From an uncultured Parabacteroides sp. (GTDB taxonomy: Bacteria; Bacteroidota; Bacteroidia; Bacteroidales; Tannerellaceae), in contig CASFNG010000003.1 in NCBI GenBank assembly GCA_949296075.1, positions 177,419 through 241,418 on the forward strand: a DNA stretch of 64,000 nucleotides, read 5' to 3'. Made by a program: the position numbers and the translations under genes. Every line of letters begins with the position of its first letter. Positions within the stretch are counted from its first letter, which is position 1. A model generated the notes under the pieces. That model worked only from the letters and a program-made list of their open reading frames with translations. It ran no database searches and was not told the origin of the DNA. Below, in pieces: positions 34,846 through 48,188 of the stretch.

Positions 34846-35433
34846 ATGTTTAAGAACAAGACGTTATGGATTATCATCGCGATCGTGGCGATTGGATTCT
34901 TTTGGGTGAAAGGGGTGTATAACAAGATGGTGACCCAAGACGAAGGGGTCAAGACCGCCTGGAGCCAGGTGGAGAATCAATATCAACGCCGGATGGACTT
35001 GATACCCAACTTGGTAAACACGGTGAAAGGCTATGCCAGCCATGAGAAAGAGACGTTGGAAGGTGTGGTCAACGCTCGTGCGGAGGCCACGAAGACAACC
35101 ATAGATCCGTCGAATCTGACCGAGGAATCCTTACGCCGGTTCCAGGCGGCGCAGGGTGAATTAGGGAGCGCCCTCTCCCGTCTGATGGTCGTGATGGAGC
35201 GTTATCCAGACTTGAAGGCGAACCAAAATTTCCAAGAGCTGCAAGCCCAGTTAGAGGGTACGGAGAACCGGATCTCCGTCGAGCGGAAGCGGTTCAACGA
35301 GGTGGCGCAAGCGTATAATACCTATATCCGTACATTCCCCAATAATCTGCTTTCCGGGATCTTCGGATTCCAGCAAAAAGCCTACTTCAGCGCCGATGCC
35401 GGAGCGGAGAAGGCGCCTACGGTGGAATTTTAA
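34846..35433 (+). CDS. LemA family protein
   Basis: Membrane-anchored helical protein of 195 residues. One N-terminal transmembrane helix (LWIIIAIVAIGFFWVKGVY) is followed by the LemA signature VTQDEGVKTAWSQVENQYQRR, MDLIPNLVNTVKGYA and the C-terminal ENRISVERKRFNEVAQ. Function of the family is not settled; it is widespread and often paired with a TPM-domain protein, as here, where the next gene starts directly after the stop codon. Confidence 0.93.
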   Translation: MFKNKTLWIIIAIVAIGFFWVKGVYNKMVTQDEGVKTAWSQVENQYQRRMDLIPNLVNTVKGYASHEKETLEGVVNARAEATKTTIDPSNLTEESLRRFQAAQGELGSALSRLMVVMERYPDLKANQNFQELQAQLEGTENRISVERKRFNEVAQAYNTYIRTFPNNLLSGIFGFQQKAYFSADAGAEKAPTVEF

Positions 35434-36417
35434 ATGAGCCGATCGATGCGAGGAATGAGAAAGGAATCGGTATACGCACGAAGGGGGGTGCTCCCACTCC
35501 TGTTTATCGTCCTATCGCTGATCTGCCGTGCGTTCGCCCTCTCCGCGGAACCTTACACCGTGGAGACAATCCCAAACGTTCGCCTCTCCGATCGCTTGAA
35601 CCACGTGAGTAATCCGGATGGGATCATCTCCGCGGATGACGTGGCACATATCAACCAGCTGCTGAATCTCGTGGAGGATAGCCTCGGCATCGAGGTGGCG
35701 GTCGTGGCCGTGAACAGCATCGGTGATCAAGACGCCCGGATGTTCGCCACGGAGTTGTTCGGACACTGGGGGTTGGGACAAAAAGGCACGGACGACGGAC
35801 TGCTGATCCAGCTGGTGACGGAGCCTTCGCGGCGCTCGGTCGTTTTCGAGACGGGATACGGTATCGAGGCGTACCTCCCGGACGCGATCTGCTACCGCTT
35901 GCAACAACGCTACATGATCCCTGACCTCAAGCAAGGGAAGTATAGCGAAGGCATGGTGAAAGGGGTGGCGGCAGTGACCAAATACCTGCTGTCCAGCGAT
36001 TACAATCGCCCCGGGACAGGAGGAAACATCCGGCCCACGGTCTATTCTCGGGATCCCTCCCTGTGGCTATTCGCGCTTGGAGCCATCGGCGTGATCGGCT
36101 TGGCAAGCTGGCTCTCTTATCTGAAGTACCGCCCAAGGACTTGCCCTCGCTGCGGGAAGAAAACGTTCTCCTATATGGGAAGGCAAGTCATTCGCGAAGC
36201 GACATATTTCTCGGAGGGATTGGCGGAGGATGTTTATCGCTGTAAGACTTGCGGATATACCGAAAAGCATCAACGCACGATCGACCGGATACATCGTGGC
36301 GGCGGAGGTGGACCGATCATCATGGGTGGCGGTGGCTTCGGCGGCTTCGGTGGTGGCGGAGGTGGATCCTGGGGAGGAGGAAGCTCCGGTGGTGGCGGGT
36401 CTATCAGCCGTTTTTGA
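35434..36417 (+). CDS. TPM-domain membrane protein with zinc ribbon and Gly-rich tail (YgcG-like)
   Basis: Membrane protein of 327 residues paired with LemA. Order: signal/anchor segment (VLPLLFIVLSLICRAFALS), TPM domain (about 45-185; LNLVEDSLGIEVAVVAVNSI, QKGTDDGLLIQLV and GYGIEAYLPDAICYRL), a transmembrane helix (LWLFALGAIGVIGLASWLSY), a four-Cys zinc ribbon (CPRCGKKTF, CKTCGY), and a C-terminal tail of glycine repeats ending GGSISRF. ATG codons at residues 5 and 8 are alternative starts. TPM domains have been tied to photosystem repair and envelope stress in other organisms; the role here is unknown. Confidence 0.9.
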   Translation: MSRSMRGMRKESVYARRGVLPLLFIVLSLICRAFALSAEPYTVETIPNVRLSDRLNHVSNPDGIISADDVAHINQLLNLVEDSLGIEVAVVAVNSIGDQDARMFATELFGHWGLGQKGTDDGLLIQLVTEPSRRSVVFETGYGIEAYLPDAICYRLQQRYMIPDLKQGKYSEGMVKGVAAVTKYLLSSDYNRPGTGGNIRPTVYSRDPSLWLFALGAIGVIGLASWLSYLKYRPRTCPRCGKKTFSYMGRQVIREATYFSEGLAEDVYRCKTCGYTEKHQRTIDRIHRGGGGGPIIMGGGGFGGFGGGGGGSWGGGSSGGGGSISRF

Positions 36418-36488: not shown

Positions 36489-37406
36489 CTATTCACGCAT
36501 CTCATCCCGCTTGGGCAATTCTCCATCCATAACCGCCCGGGTTTGCGAGATCTTTGAGTTGGGAGGCACGCTATGGGTAAGCCAAATATTACCACCGATC
36601 ACGGAACCTCTCCCTATGGTGATCCGCCCCAAGATAGACGCGTTGGAATAAATCGTCACGTTATCCTCAATAATAGGATGGCGAGGCAGGTCGATCGGCA
36701 GTCCCTCCTCGTCGAGCGTGAAGCTCTTGGCTCCCAAAGTCACTCCTTGATAAAGCCGGACGTGGTTCCCTATGATGGCGGTCTGCCCGACAACGATCCC
36801 CGTACCATGATCTATACTAAAATACTCCCCGATCCGGGCTCCCGGATGAATGTCGATCCCCGTCCGGGAATGCGCCATCTCCGTGATAATACGGGGAATC
36901 ACCGGTACGCCTAATCCAAACAGCTCATGAGCGACCCGTTGATGCAACAGGGCATAAACCGCCGGATAACAAAAGATGATCTCGCTAAGGCTCTTAGCCG
37001 CAGGATCACCATCCAAGATCGCTTTCACGTCTGTGGACAGCAGGTATTTAATATGTGGGATCCGATCGATAAACGCGATGGCAATCTCAGAGGCCTTATC
37101 CTTGGATTCACCACAACATTCAGCCTCGAAACAAAGTCCATTATAGATCTGCTCTTGCAGCAGATCATAAATTTTTTCTAAATAAACGCCTGTGTAATAT
37201 TGAATAGAGCCAAGCTTAGCCTCTTGTTCTGTTCCAAAGAATCCGGGAAAAATAACCGTCCGTAACAAACCCATGATCTCCCGTAAAGTAGTCACTGAGG
37301 GTGATGGCTTCTGATGCAGCGGGATATAACGGTATTCCGGCAGATCCGTGGCAGAAAGCCGGTCCACGTTCCGCTGTATCTTATCTAAGATGATTCTCCT
37401 ATCCAT
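36489..37406 (-). CDS. serine O-acetyltransferase
   Basis: Makes O-acetylserine from serine and acetyl-CoA, the entry to cysteine synthesis. The 305-residue protein has an N-terminal helical SAT domain (about 1-160; IPHIKYLLSTDVKAILDGDP and YPAVYALLHQRVAHELF) and a left-handed beta-helix of hexapeptide repeats with SRTGIDIHPGARIGEYF, IDHGTGIVVGQTAIIGN and the catalytic-type HGTGIVVG. It resembles the EpsC/CysE group. ATG 37406 begins the family sequence and lies 5 bp after the upstream stop; the frame to 37502 is out of keeping with the family. Confidence 0.9.
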   Translation of the reverse strand: MDRRIILDKIQRNVDRLSATDLPEYRYIPLHQKPSPSVTTLREIMGLLRTVIFPGFFGTEQEAKLGSIQYYTGVYLEKIYDLLQEQIYNGLCFEAECCGESKDKASEIAIAFIDRIPHIKYLLSTDVKAILDGDPAAKSLSEIIFCYPAVYALLHQRVAHELFGLGVPVIPRIITEMAHSRTGIDIHPGARIGEYFSIDHGTGIVVGQTAIIGNHVRLYQGVTLGAKSFTLDEEGLPIDLPRHPIIEDNVTIYSNASILGRITIGRGSVIGGNIWLTHSVPPNSKISQTRAVMDGELPKRDEMRE

Positions 37407-37411
37407 GTGTG

Positions 37412-39592
37412 TTAATTGTCCCAAGTGGGATCGTAGCTGATTAATGAATCCGAGGCTGTGCCCAAACCGATGTAGATAAGTCCATCTAACAAGTACATGC
37501 AATGGATACTCCTGTATTTCTGTTCCAATCGCGACTTACGTGTCCATGTCTGGGTATTCGTATCATAGCGCCAAATGTACCCGCTGTCATCTACCCCATA
37601 CAGCGAGTTTTCGTACGCCACAGCGCACAGAAGAGCATTTCCAGGAAAGCTAACTTCCTCAGTCCAAGCAGTCACATCCGCATCCGTCGACCACAATTTC
37701 CGCGTATACTCAGGAGAGGGGTTACCTCGGTTGACAATCCCTAACCCCGCATAGACCTTGTTATTCACGACAGCCGCTACTCCTCCATATTGCGCGATCG
37801 GCAAATCGCTCTTACGTGCCCATTCATTCGACGCAGGTGTATAAACCCATACATCATGCATTAGGGTATCCCTCCTTCCTCCGACAAGATAAACCTGCTC
37901 ATCCAGCACACAACTTGCCGCACGATACATGCCGTTCGGACGCTTAGATGTCGCATTATCGGCCACAACCATCCATGAATTCTCGTAAGTAGAATAAGTG
38001 TACATATTATCGCTGGTATTCCCCGACTGATCTTGTCCGCCAAAAGCCCATACAGCCAGCCCAACACAGAAACAAGCCTGCCCGGAGAGTTTCTCTGGCT
38101 GCGGTTTCAAGGATCGCCATTCATTGCTTGATGCTATATATCTCCAGAACTCATCCGTGCAATCCGAGCCTTGGTCTCCACCTAACAAGAAACCTATACG
38201 GCCATCCATCTCACAAAAAGCAACTGATCCCGGCATCCGATAAGCCCCCTCAAAAGCGGCACGAAGAGTAAAAATCGGAGGAGTCTGGAAAGTTATCTCA
38301 TTACCATAAGCCACTCCACTCCCATTACGTGCATAAGCTCGTAGGTAATAGGTCGTTCCTCCCTTCAAGTTCTCGATCGTACCACTAAAAGACGCTGGCG
38401 TACCGGAAGAAAGGATCACCGATCCTACGCAATTCTCCAGTGTAGGGCTCTTGTTTATTCCCCAACATACACCAGCCTCAGTCACATCCGAGACCCCGAC
38501 AGAGAGGATCTCACCACCTACTTGGGCGGTTCCATTCCTCAAATCACTCACGGAAGTCGTGCTTAAGGTCGGCAATTCACTCTCTAAAACAGTCCAAACT
38601 CCCTCGCCCTCGCTATACGTCGTACCTAAGGCGTTGGTGGCATACGCACGGACATAATATCCCTCTTGCTGATTCAGCCCGTAGATCTTCCCAAAGAAAG
38701 TCCCGATGCCATTCCCACAAACGACCGTATCCGCGGTCTCGATCGTAGGATACGGCTCTTTTCCATAGCAAAAGCCACAAGCCGTAACAGCGGAATCACC
38801 CTCACTTGTCACCTCCAACGAGAACTCCACAAAAGTGAAGTCCGTCGATATTTTCGTGAAACGGTCATCAGCCAATACAGGCAAACCATTCGTTGTCCGG
38901 AAAGTTTCCACGGCAGCACCGTTATACGTTCCGTACTTATTCCGGGCATACGCCCTCACGTAATATGTAGTCTCCGGACGCAAATCCGTGATGACACAAT
39001 AAAACGAGTCGGCCTCCATATCGATCCGGATCAAAGAGTCAGAAGGAGAAGGCTCCGGATTCAGCATCAAGAAGACACCTCTTTCCTCCACGTCAGCCTC
39101 TCCCTTCACCGTGATCACCCCACCACATTGAGCCGAAGTGGACATTATATTCACAGGAATAGTCGTACGCACACTTCCCAGTCCATCCTGCGTCCGGAAC
39201 GAGAGGATGTCTCCATAAGCCGTATCCACCTCATTGATCGCATACGCACGGATATAATAGTCGGTATCATTCAGCAAGTTCTCGATCGTGGCCTCAAAAG
39301 CAGACTTCCCTTCTGAAACAATCTTTTTATTTCCTTCCTCCCAAGGGCAAGAAGAATCCGTGCTCCAACAAAAGCCGGACTCCGTCACCCGGGAACCATT
39401 TTCCCTCGTGACCTCACCCGATACCGTCACGGAGCTGGCGGTCGAGCGCAATATCTCGCCCGTCTCGACAGATGGGCTCAACGCATTCCGGATGCCTCCC
39501 GCTATATCCGGGTCTTCCACACATCCGGTCATCGCCAAAGTTGCGAATAAAAAAGAGAAAAAACAATATATATGTCTCATAAAACTGCTCAT
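37412..39592 (-). CDS. lipoprotein with fibronectin-like repeats and C-terminal Kelch propeller
   Basis: Predicted 726-residue lipoprotein (alternative ATG at 39580). The signal peptide ends in the lipobox LAMTGC, followed by VEDPD. Residues ~30-440 hold about five fibronectin-III-like repeats with the recurring pattern G-x-x-V-T-E-x-G-F/V-C-W and a YY-x-RAYA strand (TDYYIRAYAINEVDTAYGD, TYYVRAYARNKYGTYNG, YYLRAYARNGSGVAYGN). Residues ~450-726 carry Kelch-type blades (VWAFGGQDQSGNTSDNMYTY, VYLVGGRRDTLMHDVWVY). This is a typical architecture for a surface binding protein. It directly follows the kinase-cluster envelope protein, suggesting an outer-membrane output or ligand-sensing partner. Confidence 0.83.
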   Translation of the reverse strand: MSSFMRHIYCFFSFLFATLAMTGCVEDPDIAGGIRNALSPSVETGEILRSTASSVTVSGEVTRENGSRVTESGFCWSTDSSCPWEEGNKKIVSEGKSAFEATIENLLNDTDYYIRAYAINEVDTAYGDILSFRTQDGLGSVRTTIPVNIMSTSAQCGGVITVKGEADVEERGVFLMLNPEPSPSDSLIRIDMEADSFYCVITDLRPETTYYVRAYARNKYGTYNGAAVETFRTTNGLPVLADDRFTKISTDFTFVEFSLEVTSEGDSAVTACGFCYGKEPYPTIETADTVVCGNGIGTFFGKIYGLNQQEGYYVRAYATNALGTTYSEGEGVWTVLESELPTLSTTSVSDLRNGTAQVGGEILSVGVSDVTEAGVCWGINKSPTLENCVGSVILSSGTPASFSGTIENLKGGTTYYLRAYARNGSGVAYGNEITFQTPPIFTLRAAFEGAYRMPGSVAFCEMDGRIGFLLGGDQGSDCTDEFWRYIASSNEWRSLKPQPEKLSGQACFCVGLAVWAFGGQDQSGNTSDNMYTYSTYENSWMVVADNATSKRPNGMYRAASCVLDEQVYLVGGRRDTLMHDVWVYTPASNEWARKSDLPIAQYGGVAAVVNNKVYAGLGIVNRGNPSPEYTRKLWSTDADVTAWTEEVSFPGNALLCAVAYENSLYGVDDSGYIWRYDTNTQTWTRKSRLEQKYRSIHCMYLLDGLIYIGLGTASDSLISYDPTWDN

Positions 39593-40546
39593 TTAAAAAA
39601 ACACGCCCAACCCTGCGTTCAAATCCACATATTTAAAATTGACCGTATTACATCCCACACTGACAAAAAGGGATTTCGCGATCTTGAACATCACGTCGGC
39701 CTCGGCCGCTACGCCCTCGTACGAGGCATCCAAGTTTTTGCACCAGATCTCGCGCGTGATGCCGTAATCCTCATACGAATGAGTCGTAAAGGCATGAAGA
39801 AGCGTCCGTTTCCCATATCCAAAACCCACGGACGCATACAGCCAAGGACAACATTTCACGATCAAGCCTGCCGTACCCGCCAAACTACTCGTCTTGGAAG
39901 ATTCCGCGCCATTCAGCTCATACGACTCTTCCGGCTCCAGAAAATCAAGGATCTCCCCCCGGTTGTTACACTCGCCCGTATAGTTCATGAATGACATATT
40001 CGTCTTGAAGCGGACATACCATCCTAAGCGCTGGCCCACTCCCCCAACCGTGATCCCAAATGGGGACTCGATAGAATAAGCATATCCTACGAAGAATCGC
40101 ATCCGAGGCCTCGGCTTGATAAGCGATGAATCCCGATACACGATTTCCGGCTCAGCCGGCTTCAACAAGTCCTCCTTATACTCTTTCCAGTAGGTAGCCA
40201 GTTCATCGCTCTTTGGCGTCCCGATCCCCTCCGTATAGTAAACAATCAACTTAGAGATCGCGTCCAGGTCATCCTCGGTCGCTTTCACCGTCAGGCAGTT
40301 CAGGCACTTATCCATCAAGCTACGCATGGAAGAGCGCATCCGTGGGTTTGAGAGCCATATTTCCGTCAGTTTCTCTATACTATACGGGTCACACTGGGGC
40401 ACGCCCTCCTCATACCACATCTTGGCGTCGCTATAATCCTGACGTTTCATGGCCTCATCCCCTTTCCGGTTATAATCCATACGCTGTTGCGCGGCTATCC
40501 CCAAAGGGAACATCAGGCATATCATCCATATCAACAGTCTCTTCAT
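39593..40546 (-). CDS. envelope protein: TPR/Sel1-like N-terminus plus outer membrane beta-barrel
   Basis: Predicted 317-residue exported protein with a signal peptide (LLIWMICLMFPLGIAAQ). Residues ~20-135 contain a TPR/Sel1-like helical part (YNRKGDEAMKRQDYSDAKMW). Residues ~145-317 look like an 8-strand outer membrane barrel (MRFFVGYAYSIESPFGITVG, LYASVGFGYGKRTLLHAF) ending in phenylalanine (LNAGLGVFF). I do not recognise a named family. It lies 40 bp after the Ser/Thr kinase and immediately before the Kelch lipoprotein on the same strand, so it may be the outer membrane component of that signalling module. Confidence 0.75.
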   Translation of the reverse strand: MKRLLIWMICLMFPLGIAAQQRMDYNRKGDEAMKRQDYSDAKMWYEEGVPQCDPYSIEKLTEIWLSNPRMRSSMRSLMDKCLNCLTVKATEDDLDAISKLIVYYTEGIGTPKSDELATYWKEYKEDLLKPAEPEIVYRDSSLIKPRPRMRFFVGYAYSIESPFGITVGGVGQRLGWYVRFKTNMSFMNYTGECNNRGEILDFLEPEESYELNGAESSKTSSLAGTAGLIVKCCPWLYASVGFGYGKRTLLHAFTTHSYEDYGITREIWCKNLDASYEGVAAEADVMFKIAKSLFVSVGCNTVNFKYVDLNAGLGVFF

Positions 40547-40586
40547 ACAAATAGAAAAACACGTGTTTACAAGTTCATAATTAGCA

Positions 40587-42455
40587 TTAATAATAAGTAC
40601 GACCTTCTCCGATCAACGCTCCGTCCGTATTATAAATATCAAACAGATTATCCTCGCGCTCGAAAGCACGCCCATTGTCCGAGATGCCGACACTTAAATA
40701 CTTACAAGGGATACGCTCCTCTCCATCAGAGTCGATCGCCCCATACCGATTATTCGACTTCTTTCTAACGATCTTATATTTTCCAAAAGCCATTTTCTCC
40801 TCATACTGCGCGATTTTATCAGCGATGCGTTTTGCCTCGGCCCGCTCATCACAATCGATCATCAGCCGGACAACCTCCTCTGTCAACCTCGTATCCCTCG
40901 CTTCCGAGAAGTCCCGTCTTGCCCCGGCATAATCGGCCTGAGTCATCTTACTCTTACCCGAGGCGATCAAACGATTGTATTTCTCGGTCACCTCCGCCTC
41001 TGTCGGCCGATCCTCGGGAAGCACGGTTCCTTGTTCCTCCACCACGACTTTCTCCTCACGAACAGTCGGCTTAGCCCTTTCAGCGACCACATCCTCATTG
41101 CTTCCCCGCGGCATCTCAAGCGTCTTAGGCTCCGGTTCCGATTCCGCCTCAAGGCCGTTCCCCTTGATTGTTTCCTCCGGGGAGACAACTGGATCCATCA
41201 CCACGCTATCTCCCGTTTCCACGGTCATAGAGTCTTGGATCCCGGACGATACAGGTTCCATTCGCCCGGCAAGATCCGCCTTAGGACGATAATCATATAT
41301 CCATATAGCCGCGGCAGACCCTACGATCACCAACAAGGCTACGCCTATCGGAAGTACCTTTCCCGATGCCTTTCTCTTCTCCGGAAGCGGCTTATCCTCG
41401 CCTGCGGGCTGCTCTTTCAATATAGTGGCATCCTCATCAACCGCACCCATTCTCCCTGCCGAGGGGCTATCAAGAATCTTGGTCTCCTCATCCCCATCGG
41501 GAATAGAGGTCGGCGAGGATGTATCAAGGGGACACGGATCTTTATCCGCGATCGAGAAATCCAAGGCCGCCATCATCTCACCCACCGTGGCGAAACGGTC
41601 CGCGGGTATGATCTGCATAGCCTTCAGGATCACGGACTCCGTCTCTTCCCGAATCTCCGGATTTATTTCCCGGGGATTCCGCAAAGGACGCGTCGCCCGC
41701 AAGATCGATTCGGTAGGTATCTTGCCGGTAAGCAGATTGTACATCGTGGCACCCAGCGAGTAAATGTCCGGTCGAGGGGAAAACATCTGGATCCCCTCAT
41801 TATCATATTGCTCGATCGAGGCGAATCCTTTGGAGAGGGTCAGCATCGTCGTGCTGGTCTCCTCCTGCTCCATATCGTATCGCTTGCTAACCCCGAAATC
41901 GATCAACCGGGCGTTCCCATGCTGATCGATCAGGATATTGCTGGGCTTAATGTCTAAATGCAGGATATTCTTTTCGTGCACGAACTGGAGCGCCTCACCG
42001 ATCTGGCGGACATATCTCAGCACCGTCGATTCAGGCAGCACGCCATCCCGCTCCAAGATCGATTTCAAGGATGATCCCGCGATGTACTCCATCGCGATAT
42101 ATGCGGTGTTGTTCTCCTCGAACACCTCCAGCACATTGACGATGTAGGGATGATGCACCTCCGACAAGATCTTCGCCTCCTTGATCAGCTTCTCCTTAAA
42201 TTTGTCGAACAGAATCTTCCCCGTCTCGGAATGAACTCTCACCGCCTGCGAATCAGCGTCCCTAAAGCAGTAATCCTTGAAGAAATACTCTTTCACGCAG
42301 ACCGGCACCTCGGTTTTTATGGTACCTAACGGCCCCTTCACCTCCGTGTTCCAGATCCCCTTATAGGTTATGCCGAACCCCCCTTGCCCAATGACGTGGG
42401 TAAGTTTATATTTCCCATTTTGAAGCAAATATCCATCCGGCAGATTCATGATCAT
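40587..42455 (-). CDS. transmembrane serine/threonine protein kinase
   Basis: Hanks-type kinase of 622 residues. The kinase domain spans about 17-300: glycine loop VIGQGGFGIT (21-30), ATP lysine Lys55 (VCVKEY), Glu93, catalytic loop HLDIKPSN (Asp168) and DFG at 186. His-Leu-Asp replaces His-Arg-Asp, making it a non-RD kinase. A juxtamembrane linker (300-365) contains two similar acidic-Thr motifs, DEETKIL (Thr325) and EDATIL (Thr344). One transmembrane helix (367-387) leads to a periplasmic tail with a TPR-like segment (TQADYAGARRDFSEA) and a WG-repeat-like end (RYGAIDSDGEERIPCKYLSV). PP2C and FHA genes lie just upstream in the same direction, the standard partners of such kinases. Confidence 0.93.
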   Translation of the reverse strand: MIMNLPDGYLLQNGKYKLTHVIGQGGFGITYKGIWNTEVKGPLGTIKTEVPVCVKEYFFKDYCFRDADSQAVRVHSETGKILFDKFKEKLIKEAKILSEVHHPYIVNVLEVFEENNTAYIAMEYIAGSSLKSILERDGVLPESTVLRYVRQIGEALQFVHEKNILHLDIKPSNILIDQHGNARLIDFGVSKRYDMEQEETSTTMLTLSKGFASIEQYDNEGIQMFSPRPDIYSLGATMYNLLTGKIPTESILRATRPLRNPREINPEIREETESVILKAMQIIPADRFATVGEMMAALDFSIADKDPCPLDTSSPTSIPDGDEETKILDSPSAGRMGAVDEDATILKEQPAGEDKPLPEKRKASGKVLPIGVALLVIVGSAAAIWIYDYRPKADLAGRMEPVSSGIQDSMTVETGDSVVMDPVVSPEETIKGNGLEAESEPEPKTLEMPRGSNEDVVAERAKPTVREEKVVVEEQGTVLPEDRPTEAEVTEKYNRLIASGKSKMTQADYAGARRDFSEARDTRLTEEVVRLMIDCDERAEAKRIADKIAQYEEKMAFGKYKIVRKKSNNRYGAIDSDGEERIPCKYLSVGISDNGRAFEREDNLFDIYNTDGALIGEGRTYY

Positions 42456-42491
42456 GATAAAAAACCATTCAATCTGCCAAAATTACGCTAT

Positions 42492-43295
42492 TTATGCAAA
42501 AGAATAAAGAAAAGAGAGAATATTTTGTCTGACGCCCGTGTTTTCCTGCGCTTTCTGGATCGGTATGATATAGAAAGAGAAATTATCTTTTGTCGCCCCG
42601 TCGCAACGCTCCAGCAGCCGGTCCTTTATCATCTGCGCCGGCTGGTCATGATTGAAAAGATCCGCGATCTCCTTATCGCTCCACTGCTCCAAGAGACCGT
42701 CCGTGCAGAGGAATACGAAATCTCCCGCCCGCACATCCGTCCAGCGATTCACATCGGCCTCCGTGGAGGAATGTGATCCCTCTATGGCCCTTACGATCAC
42801 GTTTCGCTGGGGATGCGTTGCCGCCTCTTCCGGGGTGATCTTTCCCAAGCTCACCCACAAGTTGACCAGCGAGTGATCCTCCGACCGGTACAATATCTCC
42901 CCTTGGCGCAAATAATAGATCCGGCTGTCCCCCACGTGCGCGAACGTGATGCCATCGGAATCCATATAGGCGAGCGCCAGCGTAGTCGCCATACCTTTTG
43001 CCTCCGGATGTTCCCGTACATACGTATCGAAGCACGCCTCCGCATAATGGATCGCTTTCTGGACAAAATCAGGCGTGAGCCTATCCTTCAAGAAGGTAGA
43101 GAAATAGGTCTCCATCGACTCGCATGCGAGAGAGCTCGCCACCTCTCCTTTCTCAGCTCCTCCAACCCCGTCGCATACCATGAACAGCCTGGAGGCACCC
43201 GACAGATCCTCTGGGAGCGGATAGACGGAATCCTCGTTGTTCGGCCGTCCTCCCCTTTCCGATACCGCGTATGGTTTACCGATCGTTATAATCAT
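42492..43295 (-). CDS. PP2C-family serine/threonine phosphatase
   Basis: Cytoplasmic Mg/Mn-dependent phosphatase of 267 residues that should reverse the action of the adjacent kinase. The PP2C motifs are in order: SERGGRPNNEDS (Arg plus Asn-Glu-Asp), VCDGVGGAEKGEVAS (metal-binding DGxGG at ~42-46), VGDSRIYYLRQGEI, VFLCTDGLLEQWSDKEI and a final DNFSFYIIPI with the last aspartate. No membrane segment. It sits between an FHA gene (15-bp gap) and the kinase gene (36-bp gap), all on the minus strand. Confidence 0.95.
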   Translation of the reverse strand: MIITIGKPYAVSERGGRPNNEDSVYPLPEDLSGASRLFMVCDGVGGAEKGEVASSLACESMETYFSTFLKDRLTPDFVQKAIHYAEACFDTYVREHPEAKGMATTLALAYMDSDGITFAHVGDSRIYYLRQGEILYRSEDHSLVNLWVSLGKITPEEAATHPQRNVIVRAIEGSHSSTEADVNRWTDVRAGDFVFLCTDGLLEQWSDKEIADLFNHDQPAQMIKDRLLERCDGATKDNFSFYIIPIQKAQENTGVRQNILSFLYSFA

Positions 43296-43310
43296 AATAA
43301 CAGTGAGTTT

Positions 43311-43823
43311 TTATTCATTAAAGCGCAAGACAGTCCGCCCGATCACGATCTCGTCATTATCCTTGAGCACGACCATCTCGCCAGTCTCTAAGTAACTGTT
43401 ATTATATAACGTACGGTTTTTGCTATTATTGTCAATAAGGTAATGTTTATAGCCTCCTTTCGCGCCTTTTTTCACCTCGACGCAAATATGCTCGCGGCTC
43501 ATCGTCCGATCGGCTGTGACGATGGCCAGTGTCGCTTTCGATGAGTCAGACTTCCGCCCGACGACCATCCGCCCCTCATGGAGGGGGAAAGTCTGCTCTG
43601 GCGTGTCGGCGTCCGGAAGGACGGTCAGCCTGCCGATCCCGTCCTTGGGCGGGGACACGAGAACCGTCTCCGAATCCTCTGCCGGGGATTCCGCTGAGGA
43701 TAAGAGGGATAAAGGTATGCTTCCCTTACATTTCGGGCATTTGAAGGAGGTGATGCCGAGAGGGATCTTCCTTTCGTCCACCTTTAATCCTACCTGGCAA
43801 TGTGGGCACTTGACCGCGATCAT
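43311..43823 (-). CDS. zinc-ribbon/FHA domain protein
   Basis: Cytoplasmic adaptor of 170 residues. The N-terminal 35 residues form a zinc ribbon of the MJ0042 type (CPHC, then CPKC). A linker carries an acidic-Thr motif SETVL (Thr53), similar to those of the kinase linker. The C-terminal ~100 residues are an FHA domain, with VVGR (87-90), the phosphothreonine-binding SREH (109-112) and the following Asn-rich DNNSKNRTLYNNS loop. FHA domains bind phosphothreonine peptides, so this protein is a likely substrate and reader of the kinase, comparable in logic to GarA/OdhI. It overlaps the next upstream gene by 4 bp. Confidence 0.9.
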   Translation of the reverse strand: MIAVKCPHCQVGLKVDERKIPLGITSFKCPKCKGSIPLSLLSSAESPAEDSETVLVSPPKDGIGRLTVLPDADTPEQTFPLHEGRMVVGRKSDSSKATLAIVTADRTMSREHICVEVKKGAKGGYKHYLIDNNSKNRTLYNNSYLETGEMVVLKDNDEIVIGRTVLRFNE

Positions 43824-44074
43824 AAGATAAACGATATATCATCGCCATCCATATCCGTAGCGTACAGATCCATCGTATCCATATCGGAGAGCATGATCGT
43901 ATCGTCGGCCAAGGTGATGAAATCCGCGTGATCGACAGGCTCGACACCGCTCTCGTCTATCACCACGGCGTCGCCTAAATCAACGCCTCCCTCTTCCACG
44001 TCTATGACGACGGCGTCCGCGGGCATACCGTCATTGCCATCCAACGTCACGAATGTGTATTCCTCTTCTTGCAT
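43820..44074 (-). CDS. small acidic protein, possible kinase substrate
   Basis: An 84-residue, very acidic protein without recognisable family, signal peptide or membrane helix. It has an internal repeat (DAVVID at 20-25 and 35-40) and a Thr-containing acidic C-terminus: ADDTIML (Thr59), DTMDLYATDMDGDD. The first resembles the acidic-Thr-hydrophobic sites of the kinase linker and FHA protein; TDMD fits a phospho-Thr-x-x-Asp FHA ligand. Its ATG has its own promoter 31-60 bp upstream, and its stop overlaps the FHA gene start by 4 bp, which supports real translation. Function is unknown; phospho-regulated docking peptide is my inference. Confidence 0.7.
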   Translation of the reverse strand: MQEEEYTFVTLDGNDGMPADAVVIDVEEGGVDLGDAVVIDESGVEPVDHADFITLADDTIMLSDMDTMDLYATDMDGDDISFIL

Positions 44075-44104
44075 AGCCTTTATCTATTTACATTATTCCG
44101 GAAA

Positions 44105-44133
44105 CAAAAGTACGAAAAGCGATGGATTAACAA
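44105..44133 (-). promoter_or_regulatory. promoter of acidic protein-FHA-PP2C-kinase unit
   Basis: On the minus strand TTG (44133-44131), an 18-bp spacer and TACTTTTG (44112-44105). It would start transcription about 25 bp before the acidic-protein ATG. Confidence 0.65.
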
Positions 44134-44210
44134 ACCTGTTGTATTGGCTTATAATCAAACATTTGGGTTTCGTGTACAAAAGAGGCGGGTTTAGGGCACG
44201 AAAAGCGATG
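44112..44210. repeat. 13-bp direct repeat around the internal promoter
   Basis: ACGAAAAGCGATG occurs at 44112-44124, overlapping the promoter, and at 44198-44210, just beside the FHA/TM gene stop. A regulator site is possible. Confidence 0.4.
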
Positions 44211-44216
44211 CGCGCC

Positions 44217-44870
44217 TCATTCCCTCACCCATTTGGCCTTGCACGACGAGACCGGGCAACGTTTCCGGTTCCTCAGGGACTCCCAAGGGATCTCACCCAA
44301 GAAGGTACCGCATTTCGGGCACACGTAATCGATCTTGAACCGATTGGCGAGCTCTTGCAGCTGCCTTGGGATCTTAGCGGATTGCTTAGCGCCTAAATAG
44401 ATGCCGATCGTGGGGGCGCAAACCGTCACGATAAGGCTCGCGGCGAACAGTACCGGGTTGCCCTTCCCAAAGAAACCGACCACGACACCCACCACACCCA
44501 AAAGGGCGAACGGAAGAGACTGGAATATCCTTATCTTAAATTGATTAGATGACTGTATCTTAACCTTCGCTTTAACATAATCGTCGTATACATCCCGCAA
44601 GGCGGCGAATTCCTCACTATAATCATTGTCGGATTTAAGCACCTCGGAAACAAGCAGGGAGCAAGTGTCGCCCAGGCGGATGCGATCCGTGGGGAGCACA
44701 TACTTCCGCATGATCTGGACATCGTTCACGAAAGTCCCGTTGGTCGAGCCTAAATCCTCCAGCAGCAGCCCACCATCCTCCACCCGCGTTATACGGGCAT
44801 GGTGGCGGCTGACATGAGGATCGTCCACCACGTAATCGTTATCGTCCGCTTTTCCTATCCGTATGCTCAT
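44217..44870 (-). CDS. FHA domain protein with two membrane helices and C-terminal zinc ribbon
   Basis: Membrane adaptor of 217 residues. An FHA domain occupies the very N-terminus (about 1-75): IGKADDNDYVV, SRHH (21-24) and GSTNGTFV (41-48). A helical linker follows, then two hydrophobic helices (about 119-134 and 139-159), and a C-terminal zinc ribbon with Cys184, Cys187, Cys205 and Cys210. Both ends should face the cytoplasm, so this would recruit phosphothreonine proteins to the inner membrane. It begins 3 bp after the LytTR gene stop, so the two are co-transcribed. Confidence 0.88.
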   Translation of the reverse strand: MSIRIGKADDNDYVVDDPHVSRHHARITRVEDGGLLLEDLGSTNGTFVNDVQIMRKYVLPTDRIRLGDTCSLLVSEVLKSDNDYSEEFAALRDVYDDYVKAKVKIQSSNQFKIRIFQSLPFALLGVVGVVVGFFGKGNPVLFAASLIVTVCAPTIGIYLGAKQSAKIPRQLQELANRFKIDYVCPKCGTFLGEIPWESLRNRKRCPVSSCKAKWVRE

Positions 44871-44873
44871 GGC

Positions 44874-45263
44874 TTATTTCTTCTCCTCCTCAGGCGCGGC
44901 CGTGCTCATCTCTTTCTCAAGCGTGTCTTTCAGCACCTTCAGCGGATCCTTGGATATGACCAGCTCTTTCGGCTTGCCTTCCTCCGTGAGCAGGAGCAGG
45001 CGCTGCTTGGGCAAATTGATCTGCAAGATATGGTTCTTATTGATGATGTGGCTTTTCCCCACCCGCATCAATATCTTGTTGCATCCCTCGACCTGCCTCT
45101 CCAATATCTCCTCTATTTTCCCGATATTGATGGCGAAGGTAAACTGGATATTGTTCGAAAGCAGCAATTTCGTGTAATTCCTGTCTGCCTCAAAATAAAG
45201 GATCTGGCCGATCTTGATGCGCAATAGTTCATCTCTCGTTTTTATAATCAAATACCTTTCCAT
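44874..45263 (-). CDS. standalone LytTR DNA-binding domain protein
   Basis: A 129-residue protein that is essentially one LytTR domain: IKIGQILYFEADRNYTKLLL, IGKIEEILE and MRVGKSHIINKNHILQIN are the recognisable strands, followed by an acidic/Ala-rich tail (STAAPEEEKK). There is no receiver or sensor domain, so any regulation must come from a partner. As the first gene of the kinase/phosphatase/FHA block, it is a candidate transcriptional output; the C-terminal tail, with Thr in an acidic context, could be modified. Confidence 0.88.
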   Translation of the reverse strand: MERYLIIKTRDELLRIKIGQILYFEADRNYTKLLLSNNIQFTFAINIGKIEEILERQVEGCNKILMRVGKSHIINKNHILQINLPKQRLLLLTEEGKPKELVISKDPLKVLKDTLEKEMSTAAPEEEKK

Positions 45264-45298
45264 TCGTAGAAAAAGTTATCTCATTTCCTTTCCAAAAA

Positions 45299-45306
45299 CA
45301 AATATA
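45299..45306 (-). promoter_or_regulatory. -7 element of LytTR-FHA unit
   Basis: TATATTTG on the minus strand matches TAnnTTTG about 36 bp before the LytTR ATG; no clear TTG upstream. Confidence 0.5.
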
Positions 45307-45488: not shown

Positions 45489-48188
45489 CTACAACTTGAA
45501 ACTACTGGATCTCACGTTCCATCCCTTTACGACGAATATAGGTTCAGCGGGCATATCTTCCATCGCGGTCTCGATGATGACCGTCTTGCTTTCGCCCGGC
45601 AAAAGGGAGAAAAAGTTATCCGTATAAAAACTCGGGCGCACAGGCTTCCGGTCCTGATCGAGTAATTGCAACTGGGTGAAAAAAGCGATTGTAGAAGAGG
45701 TATTCTTGATCTCAGCCTTCACGAAATGCCGGTTTTCTTCTTGATATACCTCATAGCGTGTCTTCAACCGCACCTGCCTCAATTTAGACAAATCCTCGAA
45801 ACCCGAGGCGGCAGGCCCCGTCAAGGTCGTGCGTCCTTCATACTTATCGTTAGAGCGCCAATAGAAAGTATTCGCAACCTCTTTCCCCTTCGTGTCCAAC
45901 AAACGCAACTTAATGAAATGAACTTGCGTTATATTCCTCGGGAAATCGATGACAAATACGTCATTCACGACTCCATCCTCCGGGATGTCGATCGACTGGC
46001 TTTTGCTCCATACCTTCTTACTGTCTATATCAAACACCTCGGCGATGACCTTGTAATCCTTGAATGCCTGGTAGTAATCGTTATAGACCGATACCGTATT
46101 TTTCAAATAGTCGAATTGCGCATGGAGCGGCTCCAAGGCATTCTGGGTATGGTACAAAGAGGCTGTCGGTTCCAACGAGTAGTCCCACATACGGGCGCAC
46201 ACCTGCCGGACCGGACAATTATGGTACCAAAACAAAAGTCCGGACGCATAGCGGTCTCCATAGCTAAACTTATTATAATTCCAGACTTCCCAAATGGATT
46301 TGGCGTTCATCGCCCCCACGGCCTGTCCCTTCATGGCAAATTCCTCTATGGAGGAAGAGGGGCCATAGTGGTCGGTCAGATCTGCGTACATGGTCGACAT
46401 CAGGTGGAACCCTCCCCCATCATGGTAATCCCAAACCTCCTTATTGATCGGCCAAAGGTCTTTCTCGTCCATCACTTCCCGAAGGGTCTCTACTGTCGGG
46501 ATGGTAGGCGAGCCATATTCCGGATTGAATCCATCTACACGGCTACCTCGTTCGGATGCCGTATTCTCATAATGTTGCATAGGATTCACCTGCTTGTAAG
46601 GGCTACCATCGTGTACCCCATCACATTCAGACTGCATTTGATACCCGCGCGTACCATCCAATCTCAAGATCAGTTCCTTGGCGCCGGGCATCTCCGTGCT
46701 CTCGTTTGAGGAGACATAATAAGCCAACGAAGGATGGTTGCGCAAACGTTTCACCACCGCTTCTACATTACTCAGGTATAGATCCTTATCATTGGGATGT
46801 TTCGTATCGCCGGTCATCCAGAATTCCTGCCAGACAAGGAGCCCCATCTCGTCGCAAAGCTGGAAGAAGTAATCCGATTCGGCGATACCCCCACCCCACA
46901 TACGGATTAAGTTGATGCCTGACTGCTTCGTATATCGCAATTCCGCGTAGGTACGTTTATCGGATGTACGTAGCATAGCCTCCGGGATCCAGTTCGTCCC
47001 CCGGATAAACAGCTTCTTTCCATTCACATAGAATTGCCGGGATTTATCAGGGGTATTTTGGTCGGAGGTGATTTCCCGGATACCGAAACGGGTCTTTACC
47101 TCATCAGACACCTCTCCATCCACGGTAACGGCGAGCTTGAGCTCGTACAATTCCGGTTTCCCCTTGAAAAGAGGCCACCACAGCCTTGGATGTTTGATGC
47201 TCAACTGGGGGAAGTCTTCCGGCGTGAAACAGACCTCACGGGTCTCACCCCTGAATAAATCGACCTCCTTGCTAAAGGAAATGCCCTCGCCGACGATCTC
47301 GCCTGTGATCGTGCATTTAACACCCCGCTGGGTCGGGTTTGTCACCTCCACGCTCACGGTTTCTTTCGCCAAGTCATAATTCGGTTTGGAAAGCTCCGAC
47401 CGGATAAACGGATGTCGAAGGACCGCATTGCCTGTCGCGTAAAGACTTATACTTTTCCAGATACCCGTATTCCGGTCGCGGATACCATCGTTGAACGTAA
47501 AATCCCAACCGACACTCATCAGCATGGTCGTATTCAGACCAATATTCCCATCGCCTCCATTGTGGAACTCGCCCGCGGCTCCCCATTGCTTCGGCTTGAT
47601 AGTTCCTGGCATATCCACGGGATACACCTTGATAGCCAAAGCATTCGACTGACCTATACGAGCGAAATCGGTCATATTGATATAACTCGGCTTAAACATT
47701 CCGGACATATTGCCCAGCAGATGTCCGTTTACCCAGATCTCCGCTCGATAATTGATACCATCCACTTGAAGCCAGACATTTTTATCCCGGAAGCTTTCGG
47801 GTACTTCAAACTCTGTCCGGAACCAATAGGTATAAAAGTCTCTCCCGACCTTGGCCAGATCCGGGATAATATTCCGGTCCAGTTTATTGTTCAAGCCATA
47901 ATAAGGCTCCGGATAGACCTGGTTATATACCAAAGAGTTCAACACCGTACCCGGAACGATTGCCGGCATCCATCCATCGGTCTCATAGCCGGGCAGGGAA
48001 ATCCTCTCGGCCGGATCCTGCGCATCAGCGGCTTTAAACATCTGCCAATCAGACGTTCCGTCATGAACCTCCCTTGAATCCAAATATACCTTATTCGGAT
48101 CCCGATAATAATTGGGAGTCTGAGCCACCGCCATAAGGCAAGTGGCAAAAAACAAACAGACTCCGATAAAAAATCTATTCATCGTCAT
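45489..48188 (-). CDS. glycoside hydrolase family 2, beta-mannosidase-like
   Basis: Exported 899-residue GH2 enzyme (alternative ATG 2 codons in, MNRFFIG). A signal peptide (FIGVCLFFATCLMAVAQ) is followed by the jelly-roll domain (VWLQVDGINYRAEIWVNGHL), immunoglobulin-like domains and the TIM barrel (RGTNWIPEAMLR; INLIRMWGGGIAESDYF; LLVWQEFWMTGD). The acid/base glutamate is in YVSSNESTE and the likely nucleophile is in NPEYGSP. These features fit the mannosylglycoprotein endo-beta-mannosidase/exo-glucosaminidase branch rather than beta-galactosidase. It is the last gene of the locus, 7 bp after the GH130 stop, and should act on beta-mannosidic links in the periplasm. Confidence 0.87.
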   Translation of the reverse strand: MTMNRFFIGVCLFFATCLMAVAQTPNYYRDPNKVYLDSREVHDGTSDWQMFKAADAQDPAERISLPGYETDGWMPAIVPGTVLNSLVYNQVYPEPYYGLNNKLDRNIIPDLAKVGRDFYTYWFRTEFEVPESFRDKNVWLQVDGINYRAEIWVNGHLLGNMSGMFKPSYINMTDFARIGQSNALAIKVYPVDMPGTIKPKQWGAAGEFHNGGDGNIGLNTTMLMSVGWDFTFNDGIRDRNTGIWKSISLYATGNAVLRHPFIRSELSKPNYDLAKETVSVEVTNPTQRGVKCTITGEIVGEGISFSKEVDLFRGETREVCFTPEDFPQLSIKHPRLWWPLFKGKPELYELKLAVTVDGEVSDEVKTRFGIREITSDQNTPDKSRQFYVNGKKLFIRGTNWIPEAMLRTSDKRTYAELRYTKQSGINLIRMWGGGIAESDYFFQLCDEMGLLVWQEFWMTGDTKHPNDKDLYLSNVEAVVKRLRNHPSLAYYVSSNESTEMPGAKELILRLDGTRGYQMQSECDGVHDGSPYKQVNPMQHYENTASERGSRVDGFNPEYGSPTIPTVETLREVMDEKDLWPINKEVWDYHDGGGFHLMSTMYADLTDHYGPSSSIEEFAMKGQAVGAMNAKSIWEVWNYNKFSYGDRYASGLLFWYHNCPVRQVCARMWDYSLEPTASLYHTQNALEPLHAQFDYLKNTVSVYNDYYQAFKDYKVIAEVFDIDSKKVWSKSQSIDIPEDGVVNDVFVIDFPRNITQVHFIKLRLLDTKGKEVANTFYWRSNDKYEGRTTLTGPAASGFEDLSKLRQVRLKTRYEVYQEENRHFVKAEIKNTSSTIAFFTQLQLLDQDRKPVRPSFYTDNFFSLLPGESKTVIIETAMEDMPAEPIFVVKGWNVRSSSFKL

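Follow-up and report, generated by a model that had tools for sequence, protein, structure and literature searches.

Why should the gene for a stand-alone LytTR regulator lie beside genes for a kinase, a phosphatase and two FHA proteins? We addressed this in a 64,000-nucleotide stretch of DNA from an uncultured Parabacteroides sp. (contig CASFNG010000003.1, positions 177,419 to 241,418), called the window below; its genome has 2.73 Mb and is 83.75% complete. The open reading frame (ORF) list and a check of the sequence gave eight ORFs on the minus strand (45263-37412), encoding in order a LytTR protein, a membrane FHA protein (FHA2TM), an 84-residue acidic protein (Acid84), a zinc-ribbon/FHA protein (ZRFHA), a PP2C-type phosphatase, a membrane Hanks-type kinase, a TPR/barrel protein (TPRbar) and an FN3/Kelch lipoprotein. 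A preliminary description of this DNA had proposed that they could form a complete envelope-to-transcription phosphothreonine circuit. To this we add a pair resembling the LytTR Regulatory Systems (LRS), a threonine motif, a repeat array and three separable modules. In our best reading, which we give an even chance, the block would be a phosphothreonine-worked LytTR switch with feedback.

That the block exists and is conserved is near certain. Its coordinates agree with the order and the gaps (-4 to 142 bp) given in the preliminary description; the largest gap (142 bp, 44216-44075) lies between FHA2TM and Acid84, and Acid84 and ZRFHA overlap by 4 nt. Tannerellaceae are a family of common gut and mouth bacteria; 103 of their 118 genomes searched gave a kinase match at 1e-40, mostly a single one, as did 58 of the 61 better genomes. 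Of 40 stretches fetched around the kinase match, 33 carry the complete set of eight in the same order and on the same strand, the starts lying within 10 kb. The scattering of LytTR, FHA, PP2C and kinase homologues that was to speak against the earlier proposal was not seen in these loci, and since the order is conserved in 33 of 40, the block is not a chance run. Of the other seven, L045 and L059 start at the end of a contig, four contain kinase-TPRbar-FN3/Kelch alone (L054, L061, L069, L072), and L056 is a caspase-type cluster, which was excluded from the family counts though it is a row of A3 and A4.

The best 80 of the 106 FHA2TM matches are named loci that come nearly all from Parabacteroides, Tannerella or Tannerellaceae; many of their species recur among the 40 fetched loci. 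Acid84 is present in 77 of these 80, the first five genes (modules 1 and 2 below) are complete in 75, and all eight stand in order in 64. In twelve of the remaining 16 the last block gene is no more than 300 bases from the end of the sequence; in the other four (L114, L118, L146, L150) the DNA continues but the later genes are lacking. What lies upstream of LytTR varies: in 32 loci the genes at this place form 17 clusters (the largest of 9), and the 5' border is therefore sharp.

The LytTR gene (44874-45263; minus strand, as for all block features) encodes a DNA-binding protein of 129 residues without a receiver domain (PF04397, 6.9e-10). FHA2TM (44217-44870) has an FHA domain (Pfam), a hydrophobic hairpin at about residues 115-160 and a C-terminal zinc ribbon with four Cys, as judged from its aligned relatives. 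Such relatives are called rows here (40 for the kinase, 36 each for PP2C, ZRFHA and Acid84, 34 for FHA2TM); among them L059 and L070, which are broken fragments, and L057, which has a masked stretch, were retained unaltered. FHA residues G6, K7, S21, R22, H24 and N44 are kept in 34 of 34 rows, which completes the phosphate site (Gly-Arg/Lys, Ser-Arg-x-His, Asn) with K at the Arg position; ZRFHA also has this site, with R there in 35 of 36 rows. The zinc-ribbon residues C184, C187, C205 and C210 are kept in 33 of 34 rows. As for the two transmembrane (TM) helices given in the preliminary description, a membrane segment is borne out, while the two-helix hairpin is a reading by eye: in the hydropathy scan, 27 of the 34 rows have a single hydrophobic segment and 7 have two.

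LytTR was present in all 80 named loci picked by FHA2TM (again the best 80 of 106), and in all of them it adjoins this membrane protein gene, as in an LRS. FHA2TM is likely the membrane partner of LytTR, and the two make a pair that stays together. An LRS, as set out in part of PMC6193735, is a LytTR regulator with a membrane inhibitor, acting through direct repeats that are mostly of 9 bp with 12 bp between them. HdrRM and BrsRM are examples, LRS-like operons occur in Bacteroides, and the systems are reportedly widely encoded, their activating signals being largely unknown (PMC6193735, in part). The block resembles an LRS in its stand-alone LytTR gene followed by a membrane protein gene, and in direct repeats of about 21 bp period upstream of a promoter. 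It differs in that the membrane partner bears an FHA domain and a zinc ribbon, the array precedes the next operon instead of the LytTR gene, and there is a link to a kinase and PP2C. As the alignment before LytTR shows little beyond a -7 box, with no conserved direct repeats before its own operon, we do not file the pair as an LRS member and say only that it would work like one.

LytTR also adjoins FHA2TM in L163, L165, L186 and L056. L210, a locus from another part of the class, has a cluster with ZRFHA, PP2C and kinase in which FHA2TM and a stand-alone LytTR (PF04397, 6e-20) are one gene apart. Among 16 FHA2TM loci examined outside the block with the family profile, which are part of those found and some of which end at contig ends, LytTR was near in four (L056, L163, L165, L210). 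One species carries a tandem duplicate of LytTR and part of FHA2TM before the block (L055 4480-7253).

The Bacteroidetes -7 box has the form TAnnTTTG. A B. thetaiotaomicron example is given in part of PMC6193735. In the block we observed the box as TATATTTG (45299-45306) before LytTR-FHA2TM in 33 of 34 loci (3.6 in shuffles), as TACTTTTG (44105-44112) before Acid84-ZRFHA-PP2C in 35 of 35 (4.0 in shuffles), and as TAATTTTG (42478-42485) before kinase-TPRbar-FN3/Kelch in 36 of 40 (5.3 in shuffles). It was rare before the remaining genes (FHA2TM 2/34, ZRFHA 0/36, PP2C 0/36, TPRbar 0/40, FN3/Kelch 3/40). A generic sigma-70 promoter scan found 11 promoters against 10.2 expected. The two internal promoters of the preliminary description are thus supported by the conserved boxes before Acid84 and the kinase. 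Judged from sequence, the conserved predicted promoters would divide the block into three modules that can separate.

Most natural splits fall at the promoter joints. PP2C and kinase are split in G021, G026 and G052 (L114 and L054 in the last), and FHA2TM and Acid84 in G395. In G009, LytTR-FHA2TM lies apart from kinase-TPRbar-FN3/Kelch, with module 2 in neither stretch (this genome is 77% complete). L150 breaks after the kinase, away from any promoter joint.

G395 belongs to another family of the same order. It has LytTR-FHA2TM at L163 and, at L218, an Acid-like gene, ZRFHA, PP2C, kinase, TPRbar, FN3/Kelch and the acetyltransferase in the same order as here, so that one genome retains all the parts, although they do not lie in one place. 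Its kinase is 62% identical over the first 310 residues; its Acid-like protein (97 aa, 27 D/E, 0 K/R) is a weak positional relative, at 15.3 bits only. In G299, LytTR-FHA2TM is followed by the start of a kinase at the contig end (L165), and another short contig holds kinases, a ZRFHA and a PP2C. Modules 1 and 2 are both retained in G059, whose genome yielded no kinase match. Of 295 genomes of the order, 4 have Acid84 at E 0.001, each of them from Tannerellaceae; FHA2TM relatives at 1e-15 were seen in 17 of these 295 (4 Tannerellaceae) and in 8 of 295 class genomes (2 Tannerellaceae).

Upstream of the Acid84 promoter lies a repeat array (44148-44202), a candidate LytTR site, with the units TTCGTGCC (44202-44195), TTTGTACA (44180-44173) and TTTGATTA (44159-44152). 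The consensus of the array is TTYGTAYM, TTNGTACA and TTTGATTA; L063 and L074 have TTCGTACG as their third unit, which nearly repeats the second. The best repeat offsets from the unit are +21 and -22 (z 3.5 and 2.5). With an unbiased anchor, the last TTNGTACA, the distance from the middle unit to the -7 box is 68-69 bp in 33 of 35 loci, the other two (L062, L068) having been misplaced by the anchoring. Of the 38 genus genomes, 30 matched the array pattern, 29 of them once, for 31 matches in all, against 6 for the reversed pattern; the matches compared by coordinate (G000, G014, G022) sit between FHA2TM and Acid84. The array has the spacing of LytTR sites, and LytTR could bind here. In seven further genomes the strict pattern matched only G059, at two places, neither being its Acid84 promoter; the array of the latter is diverged, as seen in a scan by eye. 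We also considered a genome-wide LytTR regulon; with the strict array pattern, and going by the matches compared by coordinate, no wider regulon was found.

The kinase (40587-42455; PF00069, 3.8e-42) has the G-loop, Lys, Glu, catalytic Asp, Asn and DFG invariant in 40 of 40 rows. Its HRD Arg is absent (HLD in the window; L in 39 rows, M in one), which confirms the earlier non-RD assignment. A juxtamembrane linker is followed by one TM segment (368-386), and a single such segment occurs after residue 290 in 40 of 40 rows. The part outside appears TPR-like by eye and WG-repeat-like at a Pfam value of 0.009, under the cut-off. PP2C (42492-43295; PP2C_2 PF13672, 3.9e-17) has all 12 checked positions, metal-binding Asp and motif residues, invariant in 36 rows.

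ZRFHA (43311-43823; Pfam, rows) comprises a zinc ribbon, a linker with SET53VLV and an FHA domain. The linker is variable save around T53, which is Thr in 35 of 36 rows. ZRFHA has five matches in the PDB, among them FhaA (TB39.8), ranked behind a GGDEF protein from Bdellovibrio. Acid84 (43820-44074), recognised by its ORF, composition and rows, carries YTFVTLD and DFITLADDTIML. It has 25 D/E and no K/R in 84 residues, and a net charge of -19 to -25 over the last 84 residues in every row. A structure prediction from 32 sequences gave no confident fold (mean pLDDT 45, pTM 0.18), and no relative was found in the PDB. Four threonines are conserved (T7 in 34, T10 in 32, T54 in 33 and T59 in 31 of 36 rows). 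As the Acid84 and ZRFHA genes overlap by 4 nt in 34 of 35 loci, the two are probably coupled in translation.

A motif of the form acidic-T-x-aliphatic recurs in the kinase juxtamembrane linker and the ZRFHA linker, also in the other family (G395). We learned a position-specific scoring matrix (PSSM) from the ZRFHA linkers and applied it with a score threshold of 4. It matched at least once in 39 of 40 kinase linkers, with 60 matches against 11.7 ± 3.3 in 500 shuffles (largest 22), though the family rows are related, so that shuffles overstate significance and are not probabilities. In the window kinase (41415-41489; PSSM and pattern scans) EETKIL (residues 323-328) scored 2.4, under the threshold, and DEDATILK (340-347) scored 4.8. 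PDTVLL in the ZRFHA linker and DDTVLF in the kinase linker of G395, neither used in making the PSSM, both scored 12.6.

With a looser pattern, [DE].?T.[ILVM], which was chosen after inspecting the data, the family gave 115 matches against 15.3 ± 4.0 in kinase linkers, 35 against 6.4 in ZRFHA linkers and 110 against 40.3 in Acid84. In other clusters it gave 27 against 6.6 ± 2.6 in 18 kinase linkers, which include five from G003 (Tannerellaceae, caspase-type cluster), one from the second cluster of the window genome and two near-identical ones of L164. Ten scaffolds gave 7 against 2.6, and 12 ZnFHA linkers 4 against 2.3. Reversed and Ser patterns were not enriched in kinase or ZRFHA linkers. FHA domains require Thr, and the Thr specificity and direction of the motif would be as expected of FHA ligands. 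Repeated DKTLIEN/DETIID-like motifs were also seen in kinase linkers or acidic membrane proteins of L169, L166, L168 and L213; these kinase-PP2C-FHA-ZnFHA clusters of other Bacteroidota are apparently a wider kind of phosphothreonine locus.

From the observed genes, domains, conservation, promoter boxes, motif enrichment and repeat geometry we infer a mechanism, including its every biochemical step, its signal and the sign of its control (release or recruitment). By analogy with LRS, LytTR and membrane FHA2TM (module 1) would be a regulator with its membrane partner. The TM kinase with its outside domain, TPRbar and the FN3/Kelch lipoprotein (module 3) would sense the envelope. The active kinase would phosphorylate Thr in the acidic-T-x-aliphatic motifs of its own linker, of the ZRFHA linker and probably of disordered Acid84. 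FHA2TM would read these phosphothreonines and alter its hold on LytTR, and LytTR would act at the array before the Acid84-ZRFHA-PP2C promoter. The output of module 2 would be more ligand and adaptor together with the phosphatase that erases the marks, that is, homeostatic feedback. GarA and OdhI are self-binding FHA proteins that switch themselves off; ZRFHA may likewise bind its own phospho-T53 and thereby turn itself off.

The doubt about this switch has two parts. One is whether the modules communicate, which G395 makes more likely. The other is the direction and the ligand, and here G395 makes Acid84 less sure. The fully specified version, in which LytTR is gated by a membrane FHA protein reading phosphothreonine on both the kinase and Acid84 as a dedicated, disordered ligand, and drives its own ligand and eraser, would be a new class of transcription switch in bacteria. 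It is proposed only tentatively and is a good deal less probable than the switch in general.

Besides the limits just given on the shuffles and on the choice of the looser pattern, several observations weigh against the proposed switch. With three promoters, the eight genes may not be one transcript. No conserved array stands upstream of LytTR itself, unlike in a classic LRS, and G395 has no such array before its Acid-like gene. LytTR is only a candidate for the protein that occupies the array. When the anchor nearest to 68 bp was taken, the distance was 68 bp in 29, 69 bp in 7 and 79 bp in one (L187) of 37 sequences (36 of 37 at 68-69 bp), but this rule itself favours 68 bp and leaves two of 39 sequences (L059, L184) without an anchor. 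For the motif, the PSSM gave only mild enrichment in Acid84 (38 against 25.3 ± 4.6) and no match in the Acid-like protein of G395, and a Ser pattern was mildly enriched in Acid84 (68 against 51.2). In other clusters the PSSM failed (p 0.90 for ZnFHA linkers, 0.65 for scaffolds and 0.065 for kinases, the last on the same 18 linkers), and the stricter [DE].T.[ILV] was not enriched in the family ZRFHA linkers (5 against 3.1); on these two grounds, motif dialects differ between clusters.

We considered that two separate systems may lie side by side, a kinase/PP2C/FHA envelope locus with distant targets and a LytTR-FHA2TM pair that is a mere neighbour. Each module has its own promoter, the modules are apart in G021, G026, G052, G009 and G395, LytTR is near only 4 of the 16 other FHA2TM loci examined, and G059 has modules 1 and 2 with no kinase match found. 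However, a mere neighbour fits poorly with an eight-gene order kept in 33 of 40 loci beside an upstream neighbour that varies (17 clusters in 32 loci), with the conserved phosphate-binding site of FHA2TM, and with an array that precedes the phosphatase operon. Moreover, the kinase, PP2C and ZRFHA set is also found in all four LytTR-bearing genomes or loci (L056, L163, L165, L210). We consider this explanation unlikely. A shade below it we place the possibility that Acid84 is no FHA ligand, and is a DNA mimic or acidic antagonist that titrates LytTR and is made under LytTR control as negative feedback. Its charge in every row, the lack of K/R and the array before its gene would suit this role, and the G395 relative keeps the charge (27 D/E, 0 K/R) without the DDT motif. 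Known DNA mimics are folded proteins, whereas Acid84 has no confident fold; T7, T10, T54 and T59 are also conserved as Thr, and the 4-nt overlap suggests that Acid84 is a partner of ZRFHA.

A third possibility, that the locus signals in defence or cell death and is akin to the caspase-kinase-PP2C-FHA clusters of other Bacteroidota, appears improbable, more so than either of these. In L169 and L213 caspase-like peptidases (PF00656) do lie beside kinase, PP2C and FHA genes, and our kinase matches PADLOC kinase models. PADLOC, however, matches the kinase alone (0 of the 7 other proteins), the block has no caspase, and a kinase so widespread in the family, mostly as a single match, looks more like part of a core function than like a defence gene of patchy occurrence.

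Those clusters do share FHA2TM, ZRFHA, PP2C and kinase relatives with the block, and several of them, in other Bacteroidota, have caspase-like genes. In seven loci (L056, L164, L167, L168, L169, L210, L212) the gene of an acidic protein with a shared segment lies directly before ZRFHA, as Acid84 does here. They differ (L169, L213, L056 and others) in the caspase-like gene, in that the TPR/barrel-FN3/Kelch part was not seen as such, and in that their acidic proteins are larger. Homology of Acid84 to these larger proteins was considered and rejected (profile comparison probability 1.6%); the two share only acidity and the place before ZRFHA.

The phosphothreonine switch proposed here recalls PknB, whose phosphorylated juxtamembrane domain binds the FHA protein FhaA, as mentioned in part of PMC12077195. 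Both have a membrane Hanks kinase with a Thr-bearing juxtamembrane linker and an FHA protein as the reader, and the Thr in front of the ZRFHA domain resembles that of GarA/OdhI. The block differs from these in having two FHA proteins, one membrane-bound beside LytTR, and in its Bacteroidota host; its kinase is non-RD, with a TPR/WG-like outside part in place of the PASTA of PknB. PknS-EcfK of Xanthomonas is likewise a Hanks kinase that controls transcription, but there, according to part of PMC13147305, the kinase acts directly on a sigma factor, and LytTR is not named in that part. Actinobacterial kinase-PP2C-vWA gene sets are described in part of PMC7159879; the eight block proteins gave no Pfam match to a vWA domain and thus differ from them. 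Among the open-access papers listed (subscription papers being outside the scope) we found no description of this block, nor of LytTR joined with an FHA domain. If the fully specified version holds, one branch of LRS-type switches would have its trigger explained, and phosphothreonine would be relayed to transcription with the transcription factor itself left unphosphorylated. As the membrane partner has a recognisable phosphothreonine reader and stands beside a kinase, an eraser and candidate ligands, the switch is directly testable.

Among the remaining proteins, TPRbar (39593-40546) has a signal peptide, a Sel1/TPR-like N-terminal part and a probable outer-membrane barrel. Outer-membrane barrels end in F, and F is the C-terminal residue in 38 of 40 relatives; weak Sel1-repeat matches lie in the N-terminal half, and the TPR/barrel claim of the preliminary description gains to this extent, a Pfam family being absent. 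The FN3/Kelch lipoprotein (37412-39592; Pfam Kelch and fn3) has acidic residues after the lipobox Cys, which are surface-export-like. A simple lipobox pattern matches 24 of 40 relatives, 21 of these 24 with at least two acidic residues at +2 to +6. The Pfam scan of the eight proteins agreed with the LytTR, FHA (1.4e-19 and 1.3e-11), PP2C, kinase and FN3/Kelch domains named earlier and gave no family for Acid84 or TPRbar. The zinc ribbon is at the margin of the cut-offs (Zn_ribbon_4 6e-6, under its cut-off; NCBIfam TIGR02098 just above its own).

As far as it is complete, the window genome holds two Hanks kinases, two PP2C and four FHA genes. The second set (L175 7252-16007, G000:C7) comprises a kinase, PP2C, an Hsp70-FHA fusion, two dynamin-like GTPases and a C39-like peptidase. 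A ZRFHA-related zinc-ribbon/FHA gene lies at L174 8774-9319 (G000:C15), in a 20-kb stretch with no kinase or PP2C profile match. Downstream of the block is a serine O-acetyltransferase-like gene (36489-37502, minus strand; matches under the NCBIfam cut-offs), whose true start is probably later than the listed TTG. This neighbour is common to 24 of 32 loci and is frequent, not constant. LemA and TPM-domain genes follow on the plus strand (34846-36417). Upstream of the block lies a GH2-type glycoside hydrolase gene (45489-48188), a relative of which occurs in one of the 40 fetched loci, on the opposite side of the block.

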